Positions 8,571 through 27,782 of a DNA stretch of 39,165 nt are shown piece by piece. Position 1 is the first letter of the stretch, and each line of letters begins with the position of its first letter. A program made the position numbers and the translations under genes. Location: NCBI RefSeq assembly GCF_900110215.1, contig NZ_FOCX01000028.1, positions 1 through 39,165 of the forward strand. Reading direction: 5' to 3'. The notes under the pieces are model-generated. The model made no database searches. It was not told where the DNA came from and saw nothing but the letters and a program-made list of their open reading frames with translations. Origin of the DNA: Halorientalis persicus (GTDB lineage: Archaea > Halobacteriota > Halobacteria > Halobacteriales > Haloarculaceae).

Positions 8571-10251
8571 CCACGCACCAGGATTCGCACTCGTCATGTC
8601 CGCCGTCCTCGTCGCATCGACAGCCGCCGTTCCAGCGGTCGCCCATCCCCCGAACAGTACCGACCACGGCGTCCCGGAGGAGACCTTTCACAAACTGTGG
8701 TCGGGGGATCAGGACGGTGCGACCGACGGCGCGAATCTGAGTAACGGGTCGGCGGTCGAGCAGCTCGGCAAGGGAACCGATGTCCCGTTTGATTCACCCC
8801 CGCGGGCGGTCGAGCGATGGAACCGGGGTGATCACCAGGAGTTCCCGGCGACCAACAGCTCCGTGTCGATCCATCCGCCCGATGCCGACCTCTCCAGCGG
8901 CCAGTTCATCAAGGAAGCCTATACCGAGGTGTTCGCCGTCCAGCCGTCCACACGAGCACGCCTGTCGCCGTCGCGACAGCCGCTCTACGTCGCCCCAGAT
9001 GGAACGCTCCGCGGAACCGTCGACTACCGGGTGGCGGTGCCGCCAGACGACACTTCCGGTGACCGGCGCGTCTACTGGAGTCTCGAGAGCCACCAGATCG
9101 AGGAGACGAAACTCCTCGTCGACGGCGACGAGGAGACCACGGCTGGTGGCTCTCACACGCCGGCGCTGTCGTACTCCTTGGATGGATACGCCGGCGAGGA
9201 CCACCAGCTCACGCTCCAGGCGAACATCTCGGTTCGCCTTCGGAAGGAGGTCGAGACCTGTACCGCCCACAACGACGAGGGCGACTGTACCAACTGGGAG
9301 AGCTCCGTTTCGTACCCGACCGAGAACGTCACGGTGACCGATTCCATCGAGGTCACGAAGTACGACCTCGCGGTCTCCGGCTTCATCGCCGAGTATCCGA
9401 ACGGCGACCTCGGCCTCGTCGTCTACAAGAACCAGCCGTGGCTCGGCTACCAGTTGCCAAACGGTGACGTCCGAGGTGTCTGGCGGTTCTACTCGGCCCG
9501 AGACAAGGACTGGGATACGCTGGTCTACAGCTCGGACGATGGACAGCGGACCGCTCACTCACCGCTCCATCCACTCCAGGTGAACGCCTACCCCATCGAG
9601 ACGGGGCCGACGCCATCGCCCCGCCGGAACGTGACGATACTGGACGTGTACGGCACGTCGACGTCGCCGCCGACGCTCCCGTCGAACGTTCATCTGGATG
9701 TCCTCACGGAGCCGTACACGGCCAGCTACGGCATCGCGACGCGGGCCACGGCTGACGAACAGCCCGAGACCGTCCGTGCTTGGGGCCTCGTCAGAGGTGT
9801 CGAGGCAGAACGGCCCGCCGATGAGTTCGCTCGAATTCAGATCTACGAGAGCAACCTCACCGTGGAGGTGGTGAACCAAACTGAAGACACCGTCACCGTC
9901 CGGGTTATCCTCCAGAACGCGAATACCGGCGCACCAATCAATACCGACGAACGGGACGGCTACGTCGTCGTCAACGGGCAACGGGTCAACACAACCGGAA
10001 ACGGAACCGTCACGACGACGATCGAACGGCCCCCAGGCGGTGTGTCGGCCCGATACGAACCGGGTCACTGGTGGCTCAATCCCCCGGGCTATACCGGCGA
10101 CTCGGACACCGTGCTGCTGCAAGGCTCAGTGCTCCAGATAGTGTCGACGCTGTTCCGGATTGGCGTGCCCGTCTCGCTGTTCCTCCTTGCGGTTTTCTTC
10201 ATCGACCGAATCACCGGGTGGCGGATTTGGCCCCCATGGAGGTCCCTATGA
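8560..10251 (+). CDS. Large exported, membrane-anchored surface protein of the transfer cluster
   Basis: 563 residues from GTG at 8560, overlapping the pilin-like stop. The N-terminus contains a signal peptide (FALVMSAVLVASTAAVPAVAH). A long beta-rich extracellular region follows, with a short Cys pair (ETCTAHNDEGDCTNW) and Ig-like C-terminal text (VTVRVILQNANTGAPINTDERDGY). It ends in one TM helix (RIGVPVSLFLLAVFFI) and a short basic tail. This type I topology fits a surface component or adhesin of the conjugation apparatus. No named domain is recognised. It overlaps the next gene by ATGA, so it is part of the operon. Confidence 0.6.
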   Translation: MDSNHAPGFALVMSAVLVASTAAVPAVAHPPNSTDHGVPEETFHKLWSGDQDGATDGANLSNGSAVEQLGKGTDVPFDSPPRAVERWNRGDHQEFPATNSSVSIHPPDADLSSGQFIKEAYTEVFAVQPSTRARLSPSRQPLYVAPDGTLRGTVDYRVAVPPDDTSGDRRVYWSLESHQIEETKLLVDGDEETTAGGSHTPALSYSLDGYAGEDHQLTLQANISVRLRKEVETCTAHNDEGDCTNWESSVSYPTENVTVTDSIEVTKYDLAVSGFIAEYPNGDLGLVVYKNQPWLGYQLPNGDVRGVWRFYSARDKDWDTLVYSSDDGQRTAHSPLHPLQVNAYPIETGPTPSPRRNVTILDVYGTSTSPPTLPSNVHLDVLTEPYTASYGIATRATADEQPETVRAWGLVRGVEAERPADEFARIQIYESNLTVEVVNQTEDTVTVRVILQNANTGAPINTDERDGYVVVNGQRVNTTGNGTVTTTIERPPGGVSARYEPGHWWLNPPGYTGDSDTVLLQGSVLQIVSTLFRIGVPVSLFLLAVFFIDRITGWRIWPPWRSL

Positions 10252-11162
10252 TGTTGGGAAAACACCTCAAATCTCACGACTCTGAGTCGGAACAGTGCGT
10301 TAGCCGACGGCGTCTCTTGGCGTGGTCCGGGACGGCGATAGTGGGTGGATTAGCAGGTTGTGCTGGAAATGGAAACCAAGGGAACAACTCCGATTCGCCA
10401 GCTACGACCTCGTCACCGTCTGAGGATTCGGTGTTCGAAGAGAGCCGTTTTGATGGCCCCGAAATCGTTGTGACACTTAGTCAGGACCACGGCGTCAGCC
10501 GTCTCAATCTCATCGCCCCTGATGGAAGTCTCTACACCCAAGCCGACGTGGCAGAAGGCGCCACGACGGTTCGACTCCGAGTAATGGATATCCAGCCTGG
10601 ACTGGGAGACTATGAACACTACAGTCCTGGTACGTACGAGCTGACCGCAGTCAGAGAAGATTCCTCTCAAAGCAGAGAGCTGGAGATGCGGCCAAATCTC
10701 CAACTTACCGAAGCATCCCATTATCAAGATGGAGCAAACCAAGGAAATCTCGCGTTAACCATCGAGAACACGGGAACTGCGCCAACGTGGCCCTATCAGA
10801 TCGTCTATCGAGATGCACCTAACGAAGCGGCCAATGCGGAACTCAACGACAAGAAGGGAATTCCACAGTTCATCACTCCCGAAGATCCAGTAGAGAACAT
10901 CATCGGCCCGGGTGAGGCCATTGATATTGTGGGTAACACTCCACCAGTTGTATTCACAGACGACGATTCGACGGAGCGGACCTGTGACGACCAGACGGTG
11001 GAGTTCACGGCTGTCGTGGGAACAGTAGTCGGCTCTCCGCTGGAACAAGAGATAGAGGTAACTCTCAGCGGTGAGCGGTCAGGGGTCGGCACTTCAGATA
11101 CGTACACCTGCTCCGAAATCGCAGCAGAGCTCACTGACGGAGGTGGGACCGATGCGTCATAG
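10248..11162 (+). CDS. Tat-exported lipoprotein
   Basis: 304 residues. ATG at 10248 overlaps the TGA of the previous gene. The N-terminus has a twin-arginine motif CVSRRRLLAWSG, a short hydrophobic stretch, and a lipobox GLAGC, after which come Asn/Ser/Thr-rich linker residues. Haloarchaea export most lipoproteins this way and attach them to the outer face of the membrane. The body is beta-rich (IVVTLSQDHGVSRLNLIAPDG, LALTIENTGTAPTWPYQIVY) and resembles small Ig-like folds. Base composition is slightly less GC-rich than the neighbours. In the cluster it may be the analogue of the small lipoproteins (VirB7-like) of type IV secretion systems; that analogy rests on position only. Confidence 0.7.
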   Translation: MMLGKHLKSHDSESEQCVSRRRLLAWSGTAIVGGLAGCAGNGNQGNNSDSPATTSSPSEDSVFEESRFDGPEIVVTLSQDHGVSRLNLIAPDGSLYTQADVAEGATTVRLRVMDIQPGLGDYEHYSPGTYELTAVREDSSQSRELEMRPNLQLTEASHYQDGANQGNLALTIENTGTAPTWPYQIVYRDAPNEAANAELNDKKGIPQFITPEDPVENIIGPGEAIDIVGNTPPVVFTDDDSTERTCDDQTVEFTAVVGTVVGSPLEQEIEVTLSGERSGVGTSDTYTCSEIAAELTDGGGTDAS

Positions 11163-12498
11163 ACTCAGGAGGGTTTCGACGTTCGTCTGTGCTTCTGTGA
11201 TATTGCTGTTGTTAGCAACCCAACCAGCGCTTGCGCAAAGCGGCAGTTCCGGAGGAGGAGGAGCATTAGTCGATATTATCATCGAGGCTTTCCGGCAGCT
11301 ACTGCGGGCCCTGTTCAGTCCGATTGAAACCATCCGGAGCCTCGGAGATTCGCTTGCCCGATTAGTTGTTGGAACTCCCCATCCCGAGTCAACATTTAGT
11401 CGACCCACCAACGGACCTTGGCCCAACATCTATGATTACTACTGGGGCACGATCATCCCGCTCTCACTCACTCTCTATGGCCTGTCGATTGGATTGGTCA
11501 TTTTCTTCGAGTCGACCAGTCATCTCTTCAGCAGCTACCATCGATCCAAGCTCAAGAAGCGGGCCTTTGCTGGCCTCTTGGGAATCCTCTCATGGTGGTG
11601 GATGGCTGCGCTTTCGCTCCGGTTCATCGATGCGTTGAGTGGGTTCCTGACCCCGAGTCTATCCAATATCAGTTGGTTTCAGACCCTGTCCTTCAGTGCC
11701 ATCGGTCTTATCGGACTCGTCCTGAGCTGGGCAGTCGATATCATCCTCTTCCTACTAATTGCCCTCATCTACCTGGTTAGACAGCACGCACTCTATCTCT
11801 ATGTCCTCCTGATGCCTCTGCTGATCGTTCTCTGGATTCCAGGTGTGGGCCCGTTCAAGCTCGTCTCGAAGTTTATGAAGAAGCTCGCCAGTTTCTACGT
11901 TCCCTTCCTCTTTATGACGGTCCCTGTGGCCCTCCTCTTCCGGCTGGGTGATTTGCTCGGAACCAGTGCTGGGCCGACGCTCGGTGGGATCGGAACATGG
12001 ATCTCAGCATTGGTGATTCCCTTCTTAGCTCTCGTGTCGCCGCTAGTACTCTTCTGGCAGGCTGGAGCGCTGTTTTTCATCGGCGACCGGATGGCCCATC
12101 ACTTCTCCGCTCAACGGGCCAAAAATCGTGCCCGTCGGGTTAAGCAGGGAATCAACACAGGCAAACAGGGCAGTCGGAACTTTGTGAGAGGACTTCGGGA
12201 TGAACCCGCAATCACCCAGAGTGGCCAATATGTGTTCGATTCGGGAGATTCGCGAGCACATTCAGCCGGTCAGCGATTGAACAATGTTGGGTCCCGCCTC
12301 CGGAATCCCGAGAATGGGAACGGTGGAAATAGTGGAGGGAATCTCGGAGGGGGAGGAGGGAGTTCCGCATCGGAGACCAGCAGTACAGACTCTGGAGGGG
12401 ACGCGTACGACCGTAGCAATCAGGATCAGTTCAGAGATCCTGAAACCAAGGATCGATCCCGCGATTCGACTGACGAACCGCCACGCTATATCCACTAA
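11152..12498 (+). CDS. Polytopic membrane protein, VirB6/TrbL-like
   Basis: 448 residues from ATG at 11152, overlapping the previous gene by 11 bases. A signal-like N-terminus (VCASVILLLLATQPALAQ) is followed by six to eight membrane helices between about residues 95 and 325, including a Trp-rich one (ILSWWWMAALSLRFI). A basic segment (AQRAKNRARRVKQGI) and a Gly/Ser-rich low-complexity tail come after the last helix. Multi-helix proteins with a hydrophilic tail in this position of the operon are typically VirB6/TrbL, the inner-membrane channel component. Direct similarity to bacterial VirB6 cannot be claimed from reading alone. Confidence 0.6.
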   Translation: MRHRLRRVSTFVCASVILLLLATQPALAQSGSSGGGGALVDIIIEAFRQLLRALFSPIETIRSLGDSLARLVVGTPHPESTFSRPTNGPWPNIYDYYWGTIIPLSLTLYGLSIGLVIFFESTSHLFSSYHRSKLKKRAFAGLLGILSWWWMAALSLRFIDALSGFLTPSLSNISWFQTLSFSAIGLIGLVLSWAVDIILFLLIALIYLVRQHALYLYVLLMPLLIVLWIPGVGPFKLVSKFMKKLASFYVPFLFMTVPVALLFRLGDLLGTSAGPTLGGIGTWISALVIPFLALVSPLVLFWQAGALFFIGDRMAHHFSAQRAKNRARRVKQGINTGKQGSRNFVRGLRDEPAITQSGQYVFDSGDSRAHSAGQRLNNVGSRLRNPENGNGGNSGGNLGGGGGSSASETSSTDSGGDAYDRSNQDQFRDPETKDRSRDSTDEPPRYIH

Positions 12499-12504
12499 CA
12501 ACCC

Positions 12505-13518
12505 ATGAGCTCCGCAACTGACCCCGCGAAACGAATTCCGAAGTCGCTCGGTACCGACACCCAGTTCCTCGGGAAGTACTCCCTGACGGACCTCGCCGTT
12601 GCGGGCCTTCCCGGTGTCCTGGTAGTCCTGGTGACGCAGGTCGTTATCCCACCGTCGCTTACGGTCCGCGGCATTCCGGTGTCTGCCCTCACAATCCCAC
12701 TCGCAGCGATTGCGATCGCTTTCGGTGGGCTGTTCGTCTACCTCACGCCCGGCTACACCAACAGTCTCGACTGGCTCGGTCTGTTCGTGAACTTCCATCG
12801 CAGCGAGACAGAGATCGCCCACGAGGAAGCGAAGGAGTACACCCACGTCGAGCGCGTCTACCCACGCCACGACGCCATTGAGCGGACGGACCGGGCCCTC
12901 GTCGGCGCGGTGCAGGTGTCGCCGCCGACCATGGCGCTCGCGACTGACGAGGAATGGGCCCAAAAGGCAGAGGCCTTCCAGGACTTCGTCAACACGACCG
13001 TCGAGTTCCCGATCCAGATTTACTCGACGACGCAGGCGTTCCCAGCCGACGAGTACGTCGGCCGCTACGAGGACCGGTTGAGCGATCCGGACGTCAAATC
13101 CAACGAGAAACTCCAGGCGCTCATCGAGCACTACGTCGACTGGTACGACCGGGAACTGGCGCAGCGTCAGATGACCATTCGCGACCACTACGTCCTGATC
13201 CCGGTGCGACCCGAGGAAGTCCGGTACGAACGGGCCAGCCTCCTCGAAAAGCTCGCTGGGATCCCCGTACTGGGCATCCTAGTCCAGATTGTCACGGCGC
13301 CGCCCGAAGAGGAAGAGCGAGCCGCGATGCTCGAGGAACTGGACGAGCGGCGCCGGCGGGTCGAGCGCGGCCTGCGTGGCATCGAGGGGTGTGACACGCG
13401 CCCCGTCGATGCGGCCGAACTCACCCGCCTTATCGCGGAATACTGGAGCGGTACGGAAATCGAGTACGGCGACCCCGAACAGGTGCTCCGCACGTCCCCC
13501 GTCATCAACAAATCGTAG
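12505..13518 (+). CDS. PrgI/VirB3-like membrane protein with long cytoplasmic domain
   Basis: 337 residues from ATG at 12505. The N-terminus SLGTDTQFLGKYSLTDLAV leads into two close TM segments (about 27-48 and 55-78), the PrgI/TcpE/VirB3 pattern. The remaining 260 residues are soluble and contain RALVGAVQVSPPTMALATD and FVNTTVEFPIQIYSTTQAF, which read like the N-terminal domain of VirB4/TraC proteins. PrgI alone is usually about 120 residues, so this looks like a PrgI-VirB4N fusion lying just before the ATPase. The gene stops at 13516-13518, only one base before the tnpB stop codon of the second IS1341-type element. Confidence 0.65.
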   Translation: MSSATDPAKRIPKSLGTDTQFLGKYSLTDLAVAGLPGVLVVLVTQVVIPPSLTVRGIPVSALTIPLAAIAIAFGGLFVYLTPGYTNSLDWLGLFVNFHRSETEIAHEEAKEYTHVERVYPRHDAIERTDRALVGAVQVSPPTMALATDEEWAQKAEAFQDFVNTTVEFPIQIYSTTQAFPADEYVGRYEDRLSDPDVKSNEKLQALIEHYVDWYDRELAQRQMTIRDHYVLIPVRPEEVRYERASLLEKLAGIPVLGILVQIVTAPPEEEERAAMLEELDERRRRVERGLRGIEGCDTRPVDAAELTRLIAEYWSGTEIEYGDPEQVLRTSPVINKS

Positions 13519-13519
13519 G

Positions 13520-14752
13520 CTACCCAGTGGAGTGGATTTCACCATGAATTCCCGCTCGAACCGAATCCGGTACGGATTGAATGCCGTTCGCGGTCATCAT
13601 TCCGGTGTTCAAGCGCACGCCTACGGGTGCGCCTCCTTCGCCCCCATTTTGGTTGCGAAGGAGCCGATACCCGACGTTCTTAGCCGCGTTGTAGTCCGCA
13701 TGGTTCTCGTACCCACAGGATTGACACCGAAAGGTATCCTGCGACGGGCGATTACCCTCGCGCGAGCATCCACACGAGGAACATCGGCGCGAGGTATTCT
13801 TTGGGTTGACCTTTTTGACGGTGATGCCTCGTTCTTCAGCCTTGTAGGAGACGTACTCGTAAAGTCGATTGAACGCCCACTCGTGGAATTCCCTGGCGTT
13901 GGGCAATCGATTTCGGATACCGGTCAAATCCTCGAAGGCGATCACCGTGCAGCCGGTACTGACGGCCTCTTCAATAATGCCATTCGCGACACGATGAAGG
14001 GATTGTTTGAAGCGACCGGTCTCCCGTCGGCCGACTGCTTGGATATTTTCGTGGGCATATCGCGAACCACACTGTTGGAGCGAGTTCCGACGCTGAGCGT
14101 ATTCATTATACCAGTGGTTCAATTCGTTGCCGGACCAGAACACGCCAGTCGAGGTGACGGCGATGTTCTCGACCCCGAGATCAACGCCGAGAACCGTTCC
14201 GTTCTCGAGTTTGTCGGGGACGTCCACGTCCGCCTTTGTTCGGACGTGAAGGTAGAAATCACCACGGCGATGATGAAGGGTGGCGCTAGTCGTCTCCCAA
14301 TCATCGGAGTGCAGGTACTCAGAGTGGGGCGTATCACGGCTTTCGTCGGGCAGAACGTACCCGACGGTGATGCGCCCATCAACAGTACTCAGCGAGGCGT
14401 GATCGTCGTGGAACGTCGCGTTTCGCTGATTATATTCACAAAATGGGGTGGTGAAGGTCGGCAGAGATGCGGATTTACCCTTCGACCACTTGGCGACGAC
14501 GCTTTTGAGCGCGTCAACAGCGCGATCACGAGCGGATTGCACGTGATTACTGTGGAGGCGTGTCCGAGCACGAACGTCATCATAGGTCTCGTCGTGGAGT
14601 ACAGTAGAGCGGGTTTCAGCCCACTCCCCGTCCCACGCCGCGTCGACGACGTAGTTGGCTGCCCACAGGAACTCGTCGATCGTTTCGTGCAGCAGGTCTG
14701 CCTGGCCCTCAGTCACCTCCAGCTTGACCCGGACAGTACGGCAGACCTCCAT
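13520..14752 (-). CDS. tnpB: TnpB, RNA-guided endonuclease of IS200/IS605 family (second copy, different subgroup)
   Basis: 410 residues from ATG at 14752. The N-terminus VRVKLEVTEGQADLLHETI is the usual TnpB start. RuvC residues are intact: GVDLGVENIAV (Asp), VIAFEDLTGIR (Glu) and NHADYNAAKNVG (Asp). The zinc finger CSSCGCSREGNR...CQSCGY is complete with two CxxC pairs. It should be an active guide-RNA nuclease. The gene lies antisense to the transfer operon, so transcripts from upstream genes would read through it in antisense. It has the classic haloarchaeal OrfB zinc-finger form, unlike the first copy, whose finger ends CxxxxC. Confidence 0.95.
   Translation of the reverse strand: MEVCRTVRVKLEVTEGQADLLHETIDEFLWAANYVVDAAWDGEWAETRSTVLHDETYDDVRARTRLHSNHVQSARDRAVDALKSVVAKWSKGKSASLPTFTTPFCEYNQRNATFHDDHASLSTVDGRITVGYVLPDESRDTPHSEYLHSDDWETTSATLHHRRGDFYLHVRTKADVDVPDKLENGTVLGVDLGVENIAVTSTGVFWSGNELNHWYNEYAQRRNSLQQCGSRYAHENIQAVGRRETGRFKQSLHRVANGIIEEAVSTGCTVIAFEDLTGIRNRLPNAREFHEWAFNRLYEYVSYKAEERGITVKKVNPKNTSRRCSSCGCSREGNRPSQDTFRCQSCGYENHADYNAAKNVGYRLLRNQNGGEGGAPVGVRLNTGMMTANGIQSVPDSVRAGIHGEIHSTG
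13564..13632 (-). ncRNA. Candidate reRNA scaffold hairpins inside the tnpB 3' end
   Basis: Two clean hairpins lie in the last 115 bases of tnpB: AATCCG/CGGATT with a 3-base loop (13564-13578), and GCGCAC/GTGCGC enclosing GCCTACGG (13613-13632). TnpB guide RNAs are known to derive from this part of the gene. The structures are visible; their use as a scaffold is inference, and the 3' guide end cannot be placed because the right end of the element is unclear. Confidence 0.35.
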
Positions 14753-14803
14753 AACTCACCCCAACAACGCCATGACTATGAGATTAATGCGGTTTGGCTG
14801 AGA

Positions 14804-14832
14804 GCATCGTCGACTTCGAATATCGAAGATGC
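14804..14832. repeat. Palindromic left-end hairpin of the second IS1341-type element
   Basis: CTTCGA (14814-14819) and TCGAAG (14823-14828) form a 6-bp stem with a 3-base loop, and GCAT/ATGC extend it outwards at 14804-14807 and 14829-14832. It lies 52 bases upstream of the tnpB start and 61 bases before the virB4 start. Confidence 0.5.
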
Positions 14833-14892
14833 AGAGACCAACGAATCGGTATTCGAACACCACCAGCCCCAGCCGATCAAAGCCCTGAACCA

Positions 14893-16968
14893 ATGATTGG
14901 AAACCTGCTGCCCTTCACCAGCTCGGACAGTTCGGAAACTGACGACGAGGCGACCGCCGACGAGCAGGGACAAGATGACGGCGAGTCCCAGTTCACCGTG
15001 GACTACGAGGCCGACGGTGAAGCGGTCGACGGGATCCCCGAGATCCATCAGACCGTCGTCTCACCGTCGAGTATTGAGCGAACACCCAGCGCCCTCCGGA
15101 CTGACACCCAGTGGGCACAGAGCCTGTGGGTCGGCGAGTACCCCGATGCGCCGATGGATGGCTTCCTCGAAAAGCTGTACGCGGCCGCCGAGACCCAGCA
15201 GACGGATGTCAGCATCCACATCGATCCTCGTGACACGCGAGAGACGCTGGATTCGCTGGAGAACAAGATCGAGGATCTCGAAGCCGACTACGAGTACCTG
15301 ACCGAGAAACACCGTGCGAGCGCCCGGGGCGTCGAGAAAGACCTCGAGGACCACCAGGAGATGTACGATGTCCTCCGGAACACGACGATGCAGGCGTTCG
15401 ACGTCTCGATGTATCTCACGGTCAGGGGCGACGACCGCGAGAACATCGACGCCGAGTCGGTGTCGACGACAGCCCGACAAGCGCCTGCGAATCTGACCCC
15501 GGTGACGCCTCGGTGGTCTCAGCTGAAGACGTTCACCTCAGCGAGCCCGATCGCCCTGGATCAGTTCAACGAGACGCTCGACAGCAAGACGCCGATGCTC
15601 GGCGGGGCGGTCGGCGCGATGTTCCCCTTCGTTTCCGGTGCGTTTGCGGAACCCGGCATCGAGTACGGAACGTACGCGCTGAATTCGAGTCCGCTCATCC
15701 TCGACCGCTTCAAGCGGCAAACCGGCTACTGTATGATGGTTATCGGCCGGCTCGGCGCGGGCAAATCGTTCGCGACCAAGCTCCGGTTGGTGCGGCGGGC
15801 GATGTTCGATGAGGATACGGTCGTCATTATGCTCGACCCGATGCGGGGGTTCGCCGGCGTCAACGAGGCACTCGATGGCGAGCGCATCACGGTCGGTGGC
15901 CGGCGGGGGCTGAACCCGCTGGAAATCAAACCGACGCCCGATCACGTCCTGCAGGAGGTCGACGACATCGACCCGTGGGGCGAACAGATCAACTGGGTGA
16001 TGACCTTCTTCGCGACGTTCTTCGAGCACGTCGCAGACCATCCACTCGGCGAGCGCAACCAGACGCTCCGGCGGTCCGTCCAGGAAGCCTACGAGAAGCG
16101 CGGGATCACCCGCGATCCAGAGACACATACCCGGGACTCGCCCACCATCCACGACGTCATCACGGTCCTCGAAGAGATGGTCGAAGACCCCGAGGAGTAC
16201 GGGTACGTTACGGATGGGGAGCAGGAAGCCGTCCAGTCCGATGCCCAGTCGCTACTCAAGGATCTCCGCCCGTCGTTCCGCGAGGGTGGTGAACTCGAGA
16301 ACCTTGCTCGCCCCTCGGAGTTCGATCTCGATTCGAAGGTCATCTACCTCGATCTCCATCAGGAGGAGGGTACCCGTGGCCGGGCGGAGACCAGCCTGAT
16401 GATGCAGGTGCTGTTCAACAGCGTCTACGAGCGGGTCAAGCAGACCGACAAGCGCGTCGTCTTCTGTATCGATGAGGCGCACTACCTGATGAACGACGCC
16501 GTCTCGCTGGATTTCCTGGAGACGGCCGTCCGGCACAGCCGCCATTTCGATCTGAGCCTCGAATTCATCACGCAAACGGGGGGCGAATTCGCGCTGACGC
16601 CGGAGGCACGCACCATCGCAAACCTCTGTTCGCTGACCGTCCTCCACCGCGTCAACGAGGAGAAAGAGAAGATTGCCAAGTGGTTCGATCTCAGCGAACG
16701 GCAGGTGAACTGGGTCACCTCCGCGAAGGCCGGAGAGGACGAGGACGGCTACTCGGAAGCGCTGGTCGGCATCGACCAGGAGGGCTGGTTCCCACTCCGA
16801 ATTCGGGCGAGCGATTACGAGGCCCACGTCATCGACGGCGGCGCTGCGGACGTGGCCGAGCTCGAGCCCGAACCGACGACGAGCGTGACGAATCCAGATA
16901 GCCGACCCGCCGGCACGCGTGCCGACGGCGGTGAACAAACTGGCACTACTTCTCAGGAGGATGACTGA
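14893..16968 (+). CDS. virB4: VirB4/TraC-family conjugation ATPase
   Basis: 691 residues from ATG at 14893 (MIGNLLPFTSSDSSETDDE). The N-terminal domain includes WVGEYPDAPMDGFLEKLY and a coiled coil (about 120-165). The Walker A GRLGAGKS is at about 286-293 and the Walker B CIDEAH at about 525-530. FITQTGGEF and PEARTIANLCS follow in the positions of VirB4 motifs C and D. The protein powers substrate transfer and pilus assembly at the inner face of the membrane. It overlaps the next gene by eight bases. The IS1341-type insertion upstream separates it from the rest of the operon, so it may need its own promoter in 14753-14892. An earlier in-frame start would read through the IS end and is rejected. 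Confidence 0.88.
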   Translation: MIGNLLPFTSSDSSETDDEATADEQGQDDGESQFTVDYEADGEAVDGIPEIHQTVVSPSSIERTPSALRTDTQWAQSLWVGEYPDAPMDGFLEKLYAAAETQQTDVSIHIDPRDTRETLDSLENKIEDLEADYEYLTEKHRASARGVEKDLEDHQEMYDVLRNTTMQAFDVSMYLTVRGDDRENIDAESVSTTARQAPANLTPVTPRWSQLKTFTSASPIALDQFNETLDSKTPMLGGAVGAMFPFVSGAFAEPGIEYGTYALNSSPLILDRFKRQTGYCMMVIGRLGAGKSFATKLRLVRRAMFDEDTVVIMLDPMRGFAGVNEALDGERITVGGRRGLNPLEIKPTPDHVLQEVDDIDPWGEQINWVMTFFATFFEHVADHPLGERNQTLRRSVQEAYEKRGITRDPETHTRDSPTIHDVITVLEEMVEDPEEYGYVTDGEQEAVQSDAQSLLKDLRPSFREGGELENLARPSEFDLDSKVIYLDLHQEEGTRGRAETSLMMQVLFNSVYERVKQTDKRVVFCIDEAHYLMNDAVSLDFLETAVRHSRHFDLSLEFITQTGGEFALTPEARTIANLCSLTVLHRVNEEKEKIAKWFDLSERQVNWVTSAKAGEDEDGYSEALVGIDQEGWFPLRIRASDYEAHVIDGGAADVAELEPEPTTSVTNPDSRPAGTRADGGEQTGTTSQEDD

Positions 16969-19900
16969 GCAGACCCCGTCAGAACTCCCGGCAGTGGCTA
17001 ACGGCGACGAGTACATCCGGATCACTCCCTCCCGAAGCGATCTCGCGCCGGAGACCGTCGTCCGTCAGCTGGCCGGCCTCCACGGCCTTGACGCTGGCAA
17101 CGACGGATTTCTCGAAAGTATCGGTCCCTTCGGCGATCCGCCACCGGTGTTCGAGTTCCTCGCAGTGAGTGAGGGGGCAGACGAGCCGGTCGAGTTCTAT
17201 TACGGAGTCGACCGCCGGTTGGATGCCTTCGAGGAACGCCTCCGGACGCTGTATCCACCGACCGTCACGTTCGAGCGGGTCACCCTTGACTTGGAAGCGA
17301 AGCTACTCCCATCGACAGCAGACCCATCTCAGGACCACAGTGCCGGGAGTGACGATAGCCACGGAATAAATTCCAGGACAGCTGAGGAATCCTCCGGAGA
17401 CCCGAATTCGGATTCAGAGCCTGTGACTCTCTTCGATTCATCGGGGGAGGAACCGGTCGGTGACGGCGGAAGTGTGCTGTCGGAGAGCTCCACGTCGCTA
17501 GACGAGGACGAAGTCTTGTTCGAGGCTGATTCGAGTGGCGAGTCCACAGCGACTGGTCCGTCCAACTCCGAACTCGATGCCGATCACCAGCCGGCTCATA
17601 CGCAACCGACCGTCGATGAGACGACCCCACTCGGAATCAGCTGGCACGGGCAGGCTACCCGGCGGGAAGACTGGATGACGACACTACCCCAATTCACGGA
17701 TACGGAAGACGACGATGACGTTCACGCTCGGGCCCCACTCGCGTCACTCATCGATCAGCTGACCCGGGCCGAACACCCGATCGCGTTCCAGGTACTCTTT
17801 CAGCGGAAATCGGACTGGACGCACGAGGCACGAGAGCGCCAGCGAAAGCTCCGGGAAGGGGAAGACCGAGTCGTCGACTGGTTCTTCGGAGAACTCCTCG
17901 GAAACACGGAGAACGAACCACAGAGCCCGTCGAACACCGGGCGACAGCGTCGGTATCTCGACATCGGTGGGCGGGAGCGAGTCGAGGCTATCGACGAGAA
18001 GGAGCCACAGCACACGTTCACGGTGAATATGCGGGCGCTTTCGCTCGTGACTTCCGACCGACAACGAGAGCGGGTTGACCATCGTCTCGACGATATTGGG
18101 TCCGTGTTTGACCACCTGAACGGGCCGCACTATCGGCTCCGACCGAAGCGCATCCGCCGTGGGCTTCGAAAGGGGCGGCGAGCCAAGAAGCACGCCGACC
18201 GGGTACTCAACGCTACGTTAGCTATCAAGAGCGACTGGCGGAAAACCCGCCCCGATCTCGTTCTCGGGCCGGCTGAGTTGGCGAACTTCGTGGTCGTTCC
18301 GCCGGCGACTGACCTCACGACTGAGGGTGGACGGGGGTCCGACGCCGAACCCGAGAGCCGGACGCCCCTGCCACTCCCGGCGCAGGACCACATGGATGCG
18401 TTCACGGACTCGGGGATGGCGATCGGCCGCGGTCTCGGGGAGGACGGCACGCCCACGTCGGAGCCGATGCGGATTCCTCCGCATTTGCTGCCGTTCCACG
18501 TCGGCCGGTTCGCGAAGAGCGGCGCCGGCAAATCGGTCGCGCTGATCAACGACGCGCTCTCCCTGTACGACCATACCACGGGCCCAGTGTTCCTCATCGA
18601 CTCCAAGGGCGGGAATCTCCCCGAGAACTATATGCGGGCTCACGCGAACCGCTTCGGCACCGACGACCTCGAGGAGAACGTCCTCCACTTCTCGGTGCCT
18701 GACATCCTGCCTGGCTTCGCGTTCTTCGACATTACGCCGGCGCTGGAAGATGGGGTTCGTCGCGTCGACGCGATCCAGGACAAGGCCGACCACTACGAGG
18801 AGCTCATCAAACTCGTGATGGGGCCGGAGCGGTACGAGGATGCTATCGCCTCGCCGACGCTCATCAAGTACCTCATCAAGGCGATGTACGACGAGGAGTA
18901 CGGCCTCGAAAACGGCCATTTCCGGCAGGATACGAACTACTTCACCCACGACCAGTTCGAGCAGGCGGTGACCCAGTTCCATGCCGCCGGGCCGCCGGAC
19001 TCGACTCCAGAAGATGCACCGCGAGCCAGCGACCCGCAAGTCGCCGAGAAACTGGAGCGACACCTGCGCTCGAACCCAGCGACGTTCTCGAACGTCGTGA
19101 GCGGCATCAGCAACCGCATGGACTACATCACGCAGGACGCCCACCTCCGGCGGATCTTCAACAATACCCAGTCGCAGTTCGACTTCCGCGACCTTCTCGA
19201 CGAGGACAAGGTGGTCATCTTCGACCTCGGCGATCTCCGCGACGAGGCCGCCCGTGTGATGACCGGCGTCATTCTGACGCAGCTTTACGACGCCGTCAAG
19301 CGTCGCGACGGCGACGAGCTGGCCCGCAAGCCAGACGACTACGTGGCGAACCTGCTCATCGACGAAGCGTCGTCGGTCGTTGTCTCGGATACGCTGACGA
19401 CGCTGCTCGAAAAGGGGCGGGAGTTCCGGCTGTCCATCGAACTCGTGACACAGTTCCCCGAGCAGATGAAGGAGGCCGGCAACCGCGAGGTCTACCTGAA
19501 CGTCCTGAACAACATCGGCAGTCCGCTTGTCGGAAAGATCGCCGTCGACGCCGACATCGCCGAGGCACTCTCACACGAGGCGATGGATCCCGTCGAGTTC
19601 AAGAATCGGATCAGTTCCCTCCCGCGTGGCGAGTGGATCGCACAGCTCCCGAGCCCAGAGTTCGGCGAAACCGGTCCGGATCCGTTCAGTATCGAGCCGC
19701 TCCCGATTCCGCCTGGGCATCCTGATAGCGAGCAGCCTCTGACTGGGGCGCAGGAAGAGCGGTTCCAAGACGCCCTGGGGGCTGTTCACGAGCATACTCG
19801 TGAAGAGTATGGTGTTGCCGGCGGGACGACTGTCGAGAGTCGTGACGCGGCCACTGACGTCGCCTTGGAGAACGCTGACGAGTTGCCGCTCGAAGTGGCG

Positions 19901-21304
19901 ATGGCCCGTGCGATTCGCGCTGTCCAGCTGTCGAACGACGTCCGCGAGACGAACGGCTGGGTCTCCGTCGAGGAAGTCGATGAGGAACTGCTCTCGCGAA
20001 TCGAGGAGGACACCATCGAGGTGCAGGGCTACGAGACGCTTCCGGAGGTGCGGGAGGCATCCTCGCTTATCGAGGTCGATCTCCCAGACGGGGGATCGTC
20101 GGTTCAGTGTCGGCTCACGGATGAGGGTGAGCAGGCAGCCACGCCCGACACGTCGACGTCACCGACCGGCGGGGGCGAGCACCACGATGCAGTCCTTGAA
20201 ACGGTCGAGCAGTCGCTCGCAACTGCGGGGTTCTCCGTGGAGGTCCTCGATCAGAACGGGGAGTCCCGCCCCGACGCCATCGCGACGCATCCGGATCTCG
20301 ACAGGGAGCTCCAGGTGGAGGTCGAAACCACCACCCACGTCCGGCCGGCGAAGGTCCTCTCGAACCTCCGGAAGGCCCAGGAACAGGAGCGAATCCCGCT
20401 GTTCGTCGTCGCAGACCACGACGATCAACCGGCTGCCGAGATTGCCGACCGGCTCGCGAAGATCCTCCGTGAGCCGCGAAATCAGCTCTCATCCGGTGAG
20501 ACGCGGCTGTATACGATGAACCACAATGTCACATTCAACGGCGGTGCGCGAGCAGCGGATGGGGTGACAGCTGTCCGGCCAGCCACTGGCGGCAGTCGCC
20601 ACACCCGCTGGTTCGAGCGAGATGGGGCGTTCGTCCTCGAGGATAGTGCCGGGGACCAGCACGCCCGGATCGACTCTTTCGACGCCGTGTCGAAAGACCA
20701 GTTCCCGGCGACGTACAGCTACGACGCAGAGAGCGAGACCTACACCGTCTTCAGGCCGGGAGAACTCCCCGAGTCCTACGAGTCCCGCGAGGCATTCGAA
20801 GCGGAGTGGGTGCCTGTCAAGCGCCCGTTCGTTCCCAGTACCGACCTGCCCGTTCCGGACTATGCGGAGAATTCGTATGCAATTAGTATTCTCACCAGCG
20901 ACGACGAACCGGATCTTCAGCTCTACAAGCCGGCATCGGATACGGCCCAAGATCTCTCAGTACTCGTTGAGGCGATTCAAGGTAGTGAACTTCACCCAGC
21001 AGGGATTGAACCGACGGATACCGAGGAAGATCCGTTTGGAATTGAGGCCTTCGTGCGCGATAGGATCACCGAGTGTGATGAGGAGTTCGTCCCGATCGCA
21101 TATGTCTACGAAGCATACGAAGAATATGTCGAGGATCGTGAGTATGAGCGAAAAAAGAAACCCCGGTTCACGCCAGCATTCCGTGAGTATGCTGACTTCG
21201 ACCGGAAGAGGAAGTGGGTAGATGAAGAAACCCGACGCTGTTACATTGGGATCCAACTGAGCGACGCCGGCGACCAGGAGGAATCGAGCGATGCCAGTGC
21301 GTAG
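16961..21304 (+). CDS. VirD4/TraD-like AAA ATPase with nuclease-like and winged-helix C-terminal extension
   Basis: 1447 residues. ATG at 16961 follows a strong CAGGAGG ribosome-binding site and overlaps virB4. Residues about 130-230 are an acidic Ser-rich linker. The ATPase has Walker A FAKSGAGKS (about 517-525) and Walker B LLIDEASS (D801, E802), with motifs typical of VirD4/HerA-FtsK proteins (FLIDSKGGNL, ELVTQFPEQM). A restriction-endonuclease-like domain lies at about 1085-1175: RPDAIATH (D1105) followed by ELQVEVETTTH (E1120, E1122). The last 100 residues (RFTPAFREYADF, CYIGIQL) resemble the winged helix at the end of plasmid primase/helicase proteins. As coupling ATPase it would feed DNA to the VirB4 channel. 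No relaxase is found nearby; the tail could be part of DNA processing, but this is inference. Confidence 0.75.
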   Translation: MTEQTPSELPAVANGDEYIRITPSRSDLAPETVVRQLAGLHGLDAGNDGFLESIGPFGDPPPVFEFLAVSEGADEPVEFYYGVDRRLDAFEERLRTLYPPTVTFERVTLDLEAKLLPSTADPSQDHSAGSDDSHGINSRTAEESSGDPNSDSEPVTLFDSSGEEPVGDGGSVLSESSTSLDEDEVLFEADSSGESTATGPSNSELDADHQPAHTQPTVDETTPLGISWHGQATRREDWMTTLPQFTDTEDDDDVHARAPLASLIDQLTRAEHPIAFQVLFQRKSDWTHEARERQRKLREGEDRVVDWFFGELLGNTENEPQSPSNTGRQRRYLDIGGRERVEAIDEKEPQHTFTVNMRALSLVTSDRQRERVDHRLDDIGSVFDHLNGPHYRLRPKRIRRGLRKGRRAKKHADRVLNATLAIKSDWRKTRPDLVLGPAELANFVVVPPATDLTTEGGRGSDAEPESRTPLPLPAQDHMDAFTDSGMAIGRGLGEDGTPTSEPMRIPPHLLPFHVGRFAKSGAGKSVALINDALSLYDHTTGPVFLIDSKGGNLPENYMRAHANRFGTDDLEENVLHFSVPDILPGFAFFDITPALEDGVRRVDAIQDKADHYEELIKLVMGPERYEDAIASPTLIKYLIKAMYDEEYGLENGHFRQDTNYFTHDQFEQAVTQFHAAGPPDSTPEDAPRASDPQVAEKLERHLRSNPATFSNVVSGISNRMDYITQDAHLRRIFNNTQSQFDFRDLLDEDKVVIFDLGDLRDEAARVMTGVILTQLYDAVKRRDGDELARKPDDYVANLLIDEASSVVVSDTLTTLLEKGREFRLSIELVTQFPEQMKEAGNREVYLNVLNNIGSPLVGKIAVDADIAEALSHEAMDPVEFKNRISSLPRGEWIAQLPSPEFGETGPDPFSIEPLPIPPGHPDSEQPLTGAQEERFQDALGAVHEHTREEYGVAGGTTVESRDAATDVALENADELPLEVAMARAIRAVQLSNDVRETNGWVSVEEVDEELLSRIEEDTIEVQGYETLPEVREASSLIEVDLPDGGSSVQCRLTDEGEQAATPDTSTSPTGGGEHHDAVLETVEQSLATAGFSVEVLDQNGESRPDAIATHPDLDRELQVEVETTTHVRPAKVLSNLRKAQEQERIPLFVVADHDDQPAAEIADRLAKILREPRNQLSSGETRLYTMNHNVTFNGGARAADGVTAVRPATGGSRHTRWFERDGAFVLEDSAGDQHARIDSFDAVSKDQFPATYSYDAESETYTVFRPGELPESYESREAFEAEWVPVKRPFVPSTDLPVPDYAENSYAISILTSDDEPDLQLYKPASDTAQDLSVLVEAIQGSELHPAGIEPTDTEEDPFGIEAFVRDRITECDEEFVPIAYVYEAYEEYVEDREYERKKKPRFTPAFREYADFDRKRKWVDEETRRCYIGIQLSDAGDQEESSDASA

Positions 21305-21334
21305 TCGTTTCGCTCCCGTGCAGGAGCACGCAAG

Positions 21335-23368
21335 ATGACACTCTCCGAATCAGCCATCAGTGAGCACTACCGTCGTGCCAAACCCGTCTACGAGGCGCTG
21401 GCGACCGTTAAGGACTACCCGACTATCGGGCTGAACGACTTCGTCGGATGGTACATCAAACGCGACCACGACGACGTTGATGCGATCAAGGCCGGGTATC
21501 CGCAGCGCGGGCGGGTTGCCCACCTAGAACGTGACTACGATGAGATCCACGACCGCCTCGAACGGACCCTCTATGCTGTCACCACCTACAAGACACCGAC
21601 CGCCTTCCAGCGGTGGGAACCCTGTCGCTACGACGAGTCTGAGGAGACGACCGTCTGGCAGGATGAGCCCCCGACCCCTGGGTATGCCGACTTCCGAGCG
21701 GTTCCCGCTTGGGGCGATATCGACCTCGCTGACGACATCAAGCCTCAGCGTGGCAACTTGGATGGCGAGACGCAGGCACTCGTCGAGCGTTCGCTCGACG
21801 CCTACATCGAGGAGTATGCTACGCTCTACGGCACGCGGGATGCGGTGTATGCGCTGGACTCTGTCGGGGGCGCGTACGTCTTCGGGGCCCCGGAGGCCAC
21901 ACTCCCTATTGCGGACCACTTCAGCGATGATCCAGATGCGCTCGAACGGGTATTCGATGAGTTCCTCGACCGCTCGAACGCGTGGCTCCAGGAGGCAGAG
22001 ACCCGTGTGAACAAGCGCATCGACGGCGCCGGCGATGTCATCCAGCCCGACTGGGTGAATAACAAGAATCGTCAGTACAAGCCGCCGTTGTCGATTCACG
22101 CCGACCACGATGCCGTCGTCACGCCTATCGCGACCGACGACGTCCGCTACGAACTCCGTCCGTTCGAGACCGTCGATGATACCCTCATCGAGCAGGCGGT
22201 CAGCTGGGCTGACGAGTTCACACAGGTTGAGCACACGGACTGCGTCGACTCGCTGGTCGCGACGCTCTGGCCTGATCTCTACGAGGACCACGACGGGTGG
22301 CGGGCAACGCTGGAGGAATGGGTCGAAGGGGAGCGTGAGCGCAAACGGGAGCGCCAGCGTCAGCGTGAGGCGGCGCTCCAACGACGTAAGGAGCGGCTGG
22401 CAGAACTCGATGGCACCCTCGAAGGACGGCCCATTACGCCGTTCAAAGAAGACGTCTACGAAGCCGTCGAGAACATCGACATCACCGAGATCGCCCGCCA
22501 CTACGCGAGCGATGCCTACGATACGGATCCAAACCAGCCGCGGCCGCAGTTCGACCCGTGTTGGCGCCACAGCGAGAGCGGCCAGTCCTGTTTCGTCGAC
22601 GAACAGGCCAACACCTTCGGCGATTCGAAGGTAAACGCCGGGGGCGGGCCGACGAAGCTGATAGCGCTCGCGACGGGGATTATATCCGACGCCGATGCGG
22701 ACCTCGACGGAGAGGACTACTGGGCTGCCGTCGATGAACTGCGGAACGCCGGCTACGACATTCCGGTGTGGGTTCCAGAGGCCGGGTCAGACCGCGTCGA
22801 CGGCGGAACCTACGACCAGATGCCCTTCTGGGCCGTTCGGAAAGCAGCTGTCGCGCTCGAGATCTGTCCAGAGGACGCGTTTGTCGATCGTGAGGGAGAG
22901 GATGGATCCTACGAGGGATTCCCCGGCTACGAAACCTACAACGAGACGCTAGAAGCTATCGAGGACGCCGGATTAAGACACGGACGCGATCCGATCTCAC
23001 CGGAAGAAGGGCCCGATACCGAGGACCAGAACGAAGAGGACGCGAGTAGTGATACGGCCTCGGCAGATAGCCCAGCTTCGCAACTCGATCAAGCTCATCT
23101 TCGCGAGAAGAATCGGCTCTTATCGGCGAAAGTGGATCAGCTCGAAGCAGAGTTAGACGAAAAGACCCACCGGATCGACACCCTAGAGGCTGAGCTAGAG
23201 CGTCTACAGAGAGAACTCGAAACGGTTCGATCGGAACGTGACCACTTGGAATCCGCTCTCGAAGACGATGTATTGACTCAGGATTCCGAACAGCAGACGG
23301 AAGAAGACCCTGCTGACGACCGATCCCCGCTGGATCGAGCGAGGGAGCTCGTCTCTTTCGATCAGTAG
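21335..23368 (+). CDS. Archaeo-eukaryotic primase (AEP)-like replication protein
   Basis: 677 residues from ATG at 21335. The primase-type catalytic core is seen in WGDIDLADDIKP (D128, D130, metal-binding pair), SVGGAYVFGAP (176-186, nucleotide-binding motif; the usual His appears replaced by Tyr), and YKPPLSIHADHDAVVTP (S253, H255, D257). A helical region with a basic RERKRERQRQREAALQRRKER segment follows. Then comes CWRHSESGQSCFVDEQANTFGD, a pattern found in plasmid and virus primase C-terminal parts. The C-terminal 90 residues form a heptad-rich coiled coil (LREKNRLLSAKVDQLEAEL). It would make primers for element replication or for strand conversion after transfer. It starts 30 bases after the coupling ATPase gene, with a GGAG-like site at 21323. 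Confidence 0.72.
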   Translation: MTLSESAISEHYRRAKPVYEALATVKDYPTIGLNDFVGWYIKRDHDDVDAIKAGYPQRGRVAHLERDYDEIHDRLERTLYAVTTYKTPTAFQRWEPCRYDESEETTVWQDEPPTPGYADFRAVPAWGDIDLADDIKPQRGNLDGETQALVERSLDAYIEEYATLYGTRDAVYALDSVGGAYVFGAPEATLPIADHFSDDPDALERVFDEFLDRSNAWLQEAETRVNKRIDGAGDVIQPDWVNNKNRQYKPPLSIHADHDAVVTPIATDDVRYELRPFETVDDTLIEQAVSWADEFTQVEHTDCVDSLVATLWPDLYEDHDGWRATLEEWVEGERERKRERQRQREAALQRRKERLAELDGTLEGRPITPFKEDVYEAVENIDITEIARHYASDAYDTDPNQPRPQFDPCWRHSESGQSCFVDEQANTFGDSKVNAGGGPTKLIALATGIISDADADLDGEDYWAAVDELRNAGYDIPVWVPEAGSDRVDGGTYDQMPFWAVRKAAVALEICPEDAFVDREGEDGSYEGFPGYETYNETLEAIEDAGLRHGRDPISPEEGPDTEDQNEEDASSDTASADSPASQLDQAHLREKNRLLSAKVDQLEAELDEKTHRIDTLEAELERLQRELETVRSERDHLESALEDDVLTQDSEQQTEEDPADDRSPLDRARELVSFDQ

Positions 23369-23839
23369 AGCGTATCTGTTATTCAGGTAGACGGTGTAAC
23401 CATAGCGACTCAGCTACGCTGCCCGATCTACCTGACACCCCCAGCGACGCTACCTGACACCCGACAGGCTTCACCCCCTCCCAATATGGGAAAATCGCCA
23501 GACGGGAGCACTAGACAGCTGTTCCGGGAGTCTGTGTTTTTTCGGTCGGCACTGAAATCGGCTGTCAGGTAGCGCCGTCTTGCGATTTGAGGGTACCTGA
23601 CAGCCGAAAAATCAACCGATATATGGTGGGGGTGGCCGCCCAAAGTTGAGTTCGCGGCCAACGGGGCCGAGATGCCAGGCCGCAGGCCAAGCGAGAGTAG
23701 GCTGCCACCCGGACGATGGCGTGGGGCGTGGAGGGTGAAGGAGCAGGTCGACGTAGTGACAGGGAGTGGGTGGCTGTAGGAACTGTTTTTCTGCCCCAGA
23801 ATGGGGTGCGGGGCGGTTCGTGCGCTGCCCCTGATTCGT
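23369..23839. other. Non-coding block after the primase gene, candidate replication origin
   Basis: 471 bases without a convincing gene. The first half holds the repeat set described separately (direct CTACCTGACACCC copies and a 14-bp inverted repeat), plus an AT-rich TTTTTT tract near 23536 and a TATATGG near 23620. The second half is GC-rich with an inverted repeat GGCCGC/GCGGCC at 23634-23659. Repeats beside a primase gene are the usual layout of an archaeal plasmid origin; this function is not shown by the sequence itself. Confidence 0.45.
23428..23607. repeat. CTACCTGACA repeats: two direct copies and a perfect 14-bp inverted repeat
   Basis: CTACCTGACACCC occurs at 23428-23440 and 23450-23462, start-to-start spacing 22 bases (two helical turns). 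The same core occurs inverted and direct in TCGGCTGTCAGGTA (23558-23571) and TACCTGACAGCCGA (23594-23607), a perfect 14-bp inverted repeat with a 22-base spacer. Four copies of TACCTGACA within 180 bases, on both strands and with regular phasing, point to a protein-binding array such as replication iterons. Confidence 0.8.
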
Positions 23840-24130
23840 ATGTCTGGTCCGGATAGATACGACGATACGGCAGACGATCACGAACGGTTCGAAGCGGAAT
23901 TGCTCGCTCAGGATCGGGATGCGCGGTCACCATCGACGGCGGATCTCGACGACGAGACGGCCCGCCAGCTGATTCGAGAGCTACTCGATACCGGGACGGT
24001 CACACCGGTCGTCGACCAGCGGCTCCTCGTTCACGAGCCCAGCGGCACGGCGTTCGAATCGATGCAGCAGCTCGCCGTCTTCCACACGGGCTGGACGGCC
24101 GCCCGCGACACCGGCGAGGCGGACGAATGA
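23840..24130 (+). CDS. Small acidic protein of unknown function
   Basis: 96 residues from ATG at 23840 (MSGPDRYDDTADDHERF); the earlier in-frame start at 23801 lies in GC-rich non-coding sequence. It contains DDETARQLIRELLDTGTVTP and VHEPSGTAFESMQQLAVFHTG, a helix-then-strand layout. I do not recognise the family. It begins a run of four small genes and overlaps the next one by ATGA, so the two are translationally coupled. Confidence 0.6.
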   Translation: MSGPDRYDDTADDHERFEAELLAQDRDARSPSTADLDDETARQLIRELLDTGTVTPVVDQRLLVHEPSGTAFESMQQLAVFHTGWTAARDTGEADE

Positions 24131-24456
24131 TGCAACAGACGCTGGCGGGCTGTGCCTTCTGCGAGGCGCCACCCGGGACAGAGACCGGGATCGCCTACAC
24201 GTGGGGGAAAGAGGAACGGATCAGCCACCCGATTTGCGTCGACTGTGCGATTCAGGAGACGCCGGATCCTGACGAGCGTGATCACTACGCCTGTGACAGC
24301 TGTGGCCTCGTCGTCGACGCGCTCGCAGCGCTGACACGGTTTCGGATCGAACTCGGTCATCTCGAAGGCCCGATACAGGTCTGTGCGCGGTGTAGTCCAA
24401 ATGGGCCAGCAACGTACTGGACGCGCGACCTCGAGGCGCACATCGTCCCTGAGTGA
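24127..24456 (+). CDS. Small zinc-finger protein with three Cys pairs
   Basis: 109 residues from ATG at 24127, overlapping the preceding stop. Cysteines come in pairs: CAFC (residues 9-12), CVDC, CDSC and CARC. This gives two probable treble-clef or ribbon zinc sites. The rest is acidic with short helices (VVDALAALTRFRIELGHL). Haloarchaeal plasmids and proviruses carry many such small zinc-finger proteins, mostly with unknown function; binding of nucleic acid or a partner protein is the general expectation. No closer assignment is possible. Confidence 0.7.
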   Translation: MMQQTLAGCAFCEAPPGTETGIAYTWGKEERISHPICVDCAIQETPDPDERDHYACDSCGLVVDALAALTRFRIELGHLEGPIQVCARCSPNGPATYWTRDLEAHIVPE

Positions 24457-26921: not shown

Positions 26922-27782
26922 ATGTCAAGTAACAACTCGAGTCGCAAGGTCGTTACGGTGGATGAACAGGCATTCGAACGAACCGAAGAGGCCGACGTCG
27001 ACGAGGACGGCTTCGAGGTCGTCGACGACCAGCCGGAGTTCCGGGCGACGGTCCAGCAGGAAACGCAGGCGAAGGTGGATTCCAACCACCCCGACGGGAT
27101 CGTCCAGGACTTCTCGCACCTGCCCCTCGCGCAGGAAGAGAAGATTCGTGCCCGGGAAGCCGAACTGGAGCACATCAGCGCCCAGGCGGAACTCGGCACC
27201 CAGGAGGGCCGGGCGAAGCGAACTCGCGAGGTGGTCACCGAACGGCGGCAGCGCAAGCGGAAGGAACGCACCCCCGAGCGGACGGATCCGCGCGAACGCC
27301 TCTCCCGGATGGAGCTGGCGAAGGTGAACCAGGAAGCAGACCGGATGGCACAGCGGCTTCGCACCGGTCACAGTCGGGCGGCCGTCTCGCGGGCGCTCGC
27401 AAAGCGGGTCGCCAAGGGGCAGGACATCACCAAAGCAGTGTTCGACACGATGGACGCGCTCAAGGCGGCCCCCGGCGCGATCTGCCCGATTGAGGACGTC
27501 CCGGACGTGCAGACGGATGAGGTGAGCATCGAAGGCGAGATCGTGAAACTCTGGCCTCCGAGCGATTCAGCCATAGCCCAAGTCGGTCTCATCGCAGACG
27601 ACACTGGGAAAATCAAGTTCACGTCCTGGACGGCTTCAGAGCCAAAATTCGTCCGAGAGGGTGAACGGGTGCGGATGCGCGCGCTCAAGAAGAACTGGTA
27701 CCAGGGGCGGTGTTCCCTCGCAGTCACCTACGACAGTATGATCGTCTTCCCAGAGCGCGACGACCGCTGGTGGGAAGAGTAG
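26922..27782 (+). CDS. OB-fold single-stranded DNA-binding protein (RPA-like)
   Basis: 286 residues from ATG at 26922 (MSSNNSSRKVVTVDEQAF); longer frames run into GC-rich non-coding sequence. The middle is helical and basic (RRQRKRKERTPERTDPRERL, MAQRLRTGHSRAAVSRAL). Residues about 190-275 form an OB-fold of the RPA type: SIEGEIVKLWPPSDS, LIADDTGKIKFTSW, REGERVRMRALKKNW and GRCSLAVTYDSMIVF. The tail has a WW (DDRWWEE). This type of single-OB protein is common on haloarchaeal plasmids and would protect single-stranded DNA during replication or transfer. It fits with the primase and coupling ATPase in the same element. GC-rich structured DNA flanks it on both sides. Confidence 0.8.
   Translation: MSSNNSSRKVVTVDEQAFERTEEADVDEDGFEVVDDQPEFRATVQQETQAKVDSNHPDGIVQDFSHLPLAQEEKIRAREAELEHISAQAELGTQEGRAKRTREVVTERRQRKRKERTPERTDPRERLSRMELAKVNQEADRMAQRLRTGHSRAAVSRALAKRVAKGQDITKAVFDTMDALKAAPGAICPIEDVPDVQTDEVSIEGEIVKLWPPSDSAIAQVGLIADDTGKIKFTSWTASEPKFVREGERVRMRALKKNWYQGRCSLAVTYDSMIVFPERDDRWWEE

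Follow-up and report, generated by a model that had tools for sequence, protein, structure and literature searches.

The repeat array that follows the conjugation operon in the window (the whole analysed stretch of 39,165 nucleotides of Halorientalis persicus DNA), together with the core block adjoining it, is a candidate origin of transfer (oriT) belonging to a conjugative plasmid of haloarchaea. We assign to this reading, which is drawn from sequence comparison, a probability of about 0.55; it is based on the finding of a plasmid-specific phased array adjoining transfer genes and a leading-type region, and of similar cores on plasmids devoid of transfer genes. Most likely, the array marks the point at which DNA transfer between cells begins; sites of this kind have so far gone unrecognised in archaea.

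The repeat array and its surrounding genes

Exact matches to TACCTGACA occur in the window at 23429 and 23451 (plus strand), at 23563-23571 (minus strand) and at 23594 (plus strand), in agreement with the preliminary description, which had reported four copies within 180 bases. The same description had noted two direct repeats of 13 bases and a perfect inverted repeat, and both are present: CTACCTGACACCC starts at 23428 and again at 23450, with a period of 22 bases, while TCGGCTGTCAGGTA (23558-23571) and TACCTGACAGCCGA (23594-23607) form a perfect 14-bp inverted repeat with a spacer of 22 bases. The extended 12-mer TACCTGACANCC is found only in these four places in the whole 4.87-Mb genome. 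In addition, TACCTGACA alone among the 9-mers of the window has at least four copies inside 180 bases, and none of 60 first-order Markov simulations yielded such a 9-mer. In full, the element comprises five phased sites (23428-23607), then the AACCGATATATGG box, CCAAAG, a block rich in GGCC and, before a small gene, a hairpin. Its parts are as follows.

23428..23440, plus strand: site 1, CTACCTGACACCC; position kept in relatives
23450..23462, plus strand: site 2, CTACCTGACACCC; 22 bases past site 1
23509..23519, plus strand: site 3, CACTAGACAGC; a degenerate copy in the window, with strong conservation among the relatives on large plasmids
23558..23571, minus strand: site 4, TACCTGACAGCCGA; left arm of the inverted repeat, kept in 13 distinct loci
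23594..23607, plus strand: site 5, TACCTGACAGCCGA; the matching right arm, at 33 or 43 bases from its partner
23614..23626, plus strand: TATA-like box AACCGATATATGG of the core (ATAT box); at fixed distances in 13 distinct loci
23627..23760, plus strand: noncoding core block, GGGGGTGGCC..CCAAAG (23640)..GGCC-rich
23786..23814, plus strand: hairpin element TTTTTCTGCCCC-AGAATG-GGGTGCGGGGC; 54 bases ahead of the 96-aa start codon

The core block is considered noncoding because its alignments show indels of 1-2 bases, and it may be the region where the strands are opened or nicked. A half-site, CTACCTGA, at 23383-23390 on the minus strand is found in the window only. A divergent leftward promoter at 23472-23490 (inverted repeat I3) was dropped, since relatives do not conserve it, and a match to SOX2OT from a permissive Rfam scan was likewise dropped, as it lies far below the gathering score.

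The array is located at the end of a type IV secretion system (T4SS) operon and at the start of a mostly same-strand run of leading-type genes (the 96-aa gene, the DUF7558 gene, small conserved genes and the RPA-like gene).

8548..23368, plus strand: T4SS (conjugation) operon, assigned through Pfam, NCBIfam and gene-by-gene homology to a second T4SS plasmid family
before 11071, plus strand: first genes of the T4SS operon, 567 aa and 363 aa
11071-12498, plus strand: VirB6/TrbL-like protein, 475 aa (Pfam TrbL_3, 1.3e-17); the next gene encodes 337 aa
14794-16968, plus strand: VirB4-like ATPase (NCBIfam VirB4 model, 8e-50)
16919-21304, plus strand: VirD4/TraG-like protein with a C-terminal Pox_D5-like domain (Pfam T4SS-DNA_transf, 5.3e-5; Pox_D5, 6.3e-5)
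21335-23368, plus strand: 677-aa primase-like gene, the last of the T4SS operon
23840..24130, plus strand: 96-aa gene, the first leading-type gene; a longer reading frame starts at 23801, and relatives are annotated with the 23840 start
24127..24456, plus strand: DUF7558 gene (Pfam, 9.7e-66)
26922..27782, plus strand: RPA-like single-stranded DNA (ssDNA)-binding protein, 286 aa, 88% identical to the product of L001:8730-9590 (which scored 6.3e-17 against the NCBIfam replication factor A model, under the model's curated cut-off)

No Pfam match above the cut-off was obtained for the 96-aa protein. In two relatives, of which one map is complete and the other covers 150 of 155 kb, the run continues with TFIIB, DUF6735, DUF6166, DUF6610 and ArdC-like genes, with some opposite-strand genes between them; the ArdC-like gene is thus placed on one complete and one nearly complete map. 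In each of the three plasmid families examined, the RPA-like gene lies on the right-hand side of the array. A scan of a subset of the proteins of the window and its relatives against Pfam and NCBIfam matched no relaxase model. The VirD4/TraG-like protein, a relative of which carries the annotation 'primase-like DNA-binding domain-containing protein', is a candidate binder of the array. Defence-like genes are also present in the window, namely a KwaB-like gene (29275-30246, minus strand) and, at 32699-37688, an EVE plus AAA (McrB-like) gene with the one that follows it.

The preliminary description had placed the array behind a primase gene. The array does adjoin the 677-aa gene, but searches of its product against Pfam, NCBIfam and PDB profiles returned no primase match, and the AlphaFold model is poor (pLDDT 38.8). 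The only similarity shared with the PriS-like gene of a second plasmid family (family 2, see below) is the stretch PxSxHAD..VxP, which lends weak support to the assignment of the 677-aa product as a primase.

Conservation of the array and of its core

The layout described above is common to 13 distinct loci, and six plasmids were aligned with the window; these loci were gathered through similarity searches and with a pattern of which the box is a part, so that the conservation of the box is partly due to the selection of loci. The array is thus carried by related elements, an outcome that favours the preliminary description, for which relatives devoid of the array would have told against the proposal. 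The sites themselves vary in the six-plasmid alignment and the 13 loci, with forms such as TACCTGACAcC and CACTAGACAcC, and their spacing is confined to narrow ranges: 22-23 bases between sites 1 and 2, 56-58 between sites 2 and 3, and 51-54 between sites 3 and 4, with the 8.9-kb plasmid as the outlier, in which sites 1-3 align poorly (51 and 62). The distance between sites 4 and 5 is 33 bases in 4 loci and 43 in 9, while that from site 5 to the box (19 bases) and that from the box to CCAAAG (22 bases) are the same in 13 of 13 loci. Because the 10-bp difference between sites 4 and 5 corresponds to one helical turn, the alignments support binding to one face of the double helix. As for the spacing of two helical turns claimed earlier, the phasing is backed by this 10-bp difference in the relatives, but the 22-base distances are not universal.

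The window-type core (family 1) was detected in 9 plasmid records and 11 genome-contig stretches. In one search, matches spanning only positions 229-292 of the query were left out, as they reflect the hairpin and not the core. Viral contigs and phages gave no match. The eight plasmid records with a VirB4 93.7-97% identical to that of the window, two of which come from the same strain, are the eight large records among the nine with a window-type core; after these eight, VirB4 identity falls to 70%, and the ninth record is an 8,896-bp plasmid without a detected T4SS. In family 1, T4SS type and core type travel together.

The array lies between the T4SS operon and the leading-type genes in the six relatives L001-L006. 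In five of them (L001 and L003-L006), cargo genes stand between the primase-like gene and the array, and in these cases the array keeps with the downstream block; no such cargo is found in L002 or in the window. In pCBA1229 the cargo located between the T4SS operon and the array (L001:1582-5530) comprises a phosphotransferase as well as modification genes of the TOMM/YcaO/SagB kind. Several plasmids appear to have a hot spot for cargo immediately to the left of the array.

The start of the leading-type region was matched in 116 plasmid records, 107 of them at 60-80% identity. In seven further plasmids examined, the gap after the T4SS operon holds different iteron arrays, which define families 2 and 3. 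The family-2 array has direct repeats of the type CCCCGTCGAGCAATTTT, spaced 83, 159 and 40, two inverted repeats and a GGCC-rich block; one plasmid of this family has T4SS genes homologous one by one to those of the window (VirB4 40%, VirD4 41%). The family-3 array is made of five 33-nt repeats, has AAATCGCAGGACGGC in common with the array of the window and was found in 23 records. Family-2 cores are present in 47 plasmid records and in 74 of 392 genomes, the latter figure including weak short matches (e.g. query 217-256) that reflect the GGCC motif only. The VirB4 proteins of families 2 and 3 are 82-83% alike, with no one-to-one link to the core. Across 35 family-2 cores, pairing is seen in 94.6% of the cells that make up the two inverted repeats, and in five pairs both partners change. 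Furthermore, DNA folding of the family-2 core from L096 is far better than that of shuffled sequences (z -3.5), which is not the case for the cores of the window (DNA and RNA folds ordinary, z about -1) and of the 8.9- and 35-kb plasmids. The GGCC-rich motif GGCCGCCGGCTCTCTCAGGCCGAGGGGCC of the family-2 core (L096:3656-3695) also occurs without the rest in several other haloarchaeal genomes.

Four smaller plasmids (8.9, 35, 41 and 53 kb) carry a core without a detected T4SS. The smallest, from Halorientalis litorea, has an intergenic core of the window type, and the other three have a family-2 core and, a long way from it, an orc1/cdc6 of their own. In tblastn searches with VirB4, VirD4, primase and primase-associated queries, the four plasmids gave no matches except for a weak one between the 677-aa protein and the Rep of the 8.9-kb plasmid (E 0.001); as a control, the T4SS queries did match T4SS plasmids, and the 53-kb record was covered from base 3000 on. 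On the 8.9- and 35-kb plasmids, the core is an isolated island to which similarity is limited. The 41- and 53-kb plasmids retain one or two leading-type genes beside the core, in the same orientation, and for this reason may be T4SS plasmids that lost the operon. A possible helper for the 53-kb plasmid is a 253-kb plasmid of the same strain, which carries VirB4 and a family-2 core; in the strain of the 8.9-kb plasmid, no family-1 helper was found among the plasmid records matched. MOB-suite types all these haloarchaeal plasmid records as 'non-mobilizable', though many hold a full T4SS operon.

The candidate oriT and its alternatives

In bacteria, the oriT generally lies between the transfer genes and the leading region and carries plasmid-specific repeats, and in the F plasmid the leading genes run toward it. 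The element described here resembles this plan in that the array lies between transfer genes and a leading-type region, has plasmid-specific direct and inverted repeats, and has copies on plasmids without transfer genes (four plasmids, two perhaps by loss). It differs in its archaeal host, in the lack of a relaxase among the scanned proteins and in the direction of the leading-type genes, which are transcribed away from the array, against the F-like layout. Because of this direction, the F-like scheme of expression from ssDNA does not fit; if the array is an oriT, either archaeal transfer differs or these genes do without the F manner of expression from entering ssDNA. In addition, the unremarkable ssDNA folding of the window core (z about -1) counts against an oriT.

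The proposed transfer would proceed as follows. The phased sites would be bound, and the DNA bent, by a DNA-binding protein specific to the plasmid, which may be the Pox_D5-like domain at the C-terminus of the VirD4-like protein; the core block would then be opened, and nicked or unwound by some enzyme, and VirD4 would hand the strand to the channel. On entry, the strand would be protected by RPA, ArdC-like and other genes, and the primase-like protein would help to make it double-stranded. The smaller core-bearing plasmids would be mobilized in trans.

In the accessible parts of PMC11389934, oriT-only 'hitcher' plasmids are described in bacteria, and it is suggested that archaeal conjugative hitchers might exist, their identification lagging because the proteins with relaxase function are unknown there. 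According to the accessible text of PMC9905601, no relaxase homologue is known in archaeal conjugative plasmids, and an archaeal relaxase was not reported in the portions of the literature searched (including these two papers). Similarly, no archaeal oriT was found in the accessible portions of the literature, including PMC9905601, PMC9899855, PMC13107129, PMC11541004, PMC3158045, PMC11389934 and PMC3528665, a search that covered few subscription papers and leaves absence unproven. We therefore put forward, tentatively and at slightly less than even odds, that the arrays constitute the first recognised class of archaeal oriT, with at least three iteron families, arrays between the T4SS operon and leading regions with RPA (and ArdC-like genes where mapped), and oriT-only hitchers. 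If true, this would imply a relaxosome in which no known relaxase takes part, as well as a set of entry genes marked by hairpins. The relaxase and hitcher questions become directly testable in Haloferax or Haloarcula with a defined fragment of 200-300 bases, for which the three families provide natural variants, and the fragment could serve as bait for the missing nicking or unwinding protein.

An alternative that we regard as unlikely is that the sites bind a plasmid regulator and that a transcript started by the ATAT box, either a long leader or a noncoding RNA of about 140 nt, controls the leading-type genes. The box could be a promoter: it is TATA-like and stands at a fixed 19 bases from site 5, the first gene starts about 200 bases downstream, and the T-run at 23786 could end a short RNA. 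However, on the 8,896-bp plasmid there is no annotated gene behind the box in that direction, the whole window has no Rfam match at the gathering score, the leader behind the box folds no better than shuffled sequences (z -1.0), and RNAalifold gave no covariation gain on the family-1 cores. By these three analyses (fold, Rfam and RNAalifold), a structured RNA behind the ATAT box is unsupported in family 1.

Another plasmid cis-site, e.g. a partition or recombination site, is more improbable still: iterons and presence on smaller plasmids would also fit it, but parA is far from the core in the maps and no integrase is consistently adjacent.

A replication origin with iterons used by the neighbouring primase-like protein is highly improbable, despite the iteron-like layout beside a possible primase gene and the PriS-like gene near the family-2 array, since the array stays put when cargo parts it from the primase-like gene, the core persists in the absence of primase-like or T4SS genes on smaller plasmids that have replication genes of their own, orc1/cdc6 is annotated elsewhere on the mapped relatives, so that the adjacency expected of an Orc1/Cdc6 origin is lacking, and pNG600 has one predicted origin, adjoining orc/cdc6, in the published table of PMC3528665. 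The haloarchaeal Orc1/Cdc6 origins with ORB repeats in the accessible part of that paper are likewise noncoding repeat arrays on plasmids, and differ from the present array, which lies away from orc1/cdc6. An operator of the primase-like gene was rejected in view of the intervening cargo genes in five of six plasmids. Of the preliminary description, the conserved, phased, iteron-like cis-site beside a primase-like gene is retained, and its function as a replication origin or as the operator of a replication gene is not supported.

The hairpin element of the leading-type region

Returning to the candidate oriT, the hairpin element that follows its core is part of the anatomy of the leading-type region. 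It recurs in the form TTTTTCnGCCCC-N-GGGTGCGGGGC, and the strict pattern matched 29 sites in 20 of 392 genomes, compared with 0 for the reversed control. In a separate search, a match at L071:24510 looks like chance. Two plasmids carry 9 copies (one of them probably due to chance) and 6 copies, against 0 or 1 in Markov simulations; every copy shares its strand with the leading-type genes, and the opposite strand has none. The hairpin stands mostly 50-58 bases before the start codons of varied genes. A stem pair is C-G in 66 and G-C in 16 of 93 instances, which were chosen for likeness to both arms, so that the pairing is biased upward. The hairpins, with their covarying stem pair, may mark a regulon. 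The copies at 23786-23814 of the window and within L070:10129-18363 and L074:3071-26877 recur on one strand, mostly before leading-type genes of varied kinds (ArdC-like, DUF6610, TFIIB and others).

The bacterial leading regions with Frpo, as presented in the accessible part of PMC11541004 (the word 'archaea' is absent from its main text), are similar in having ssDNA-binding and ArdC-like genes on the same strand and a hairpin before several genes. They differ in that the hairpin described here leaves its T-run unpaired (by inspection, no paired A-run, and hence no Frpo-like pairing of promoter elements, was found) and in the opposite orientation to the candidate oriT. Owing to the unpaired T-run and the unfitting gene direction, the hairpins were not adopted as Frpo-like ssDNA promoters. 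Finally, inverted repeats TTAACCAAC..GTTGGTTAA, putative regulator sites, are found near hairpins (L027, L029, L030, L034, L035 and L040) and beside the core of the 8.9-kb plasmid (L086:1667-1710).
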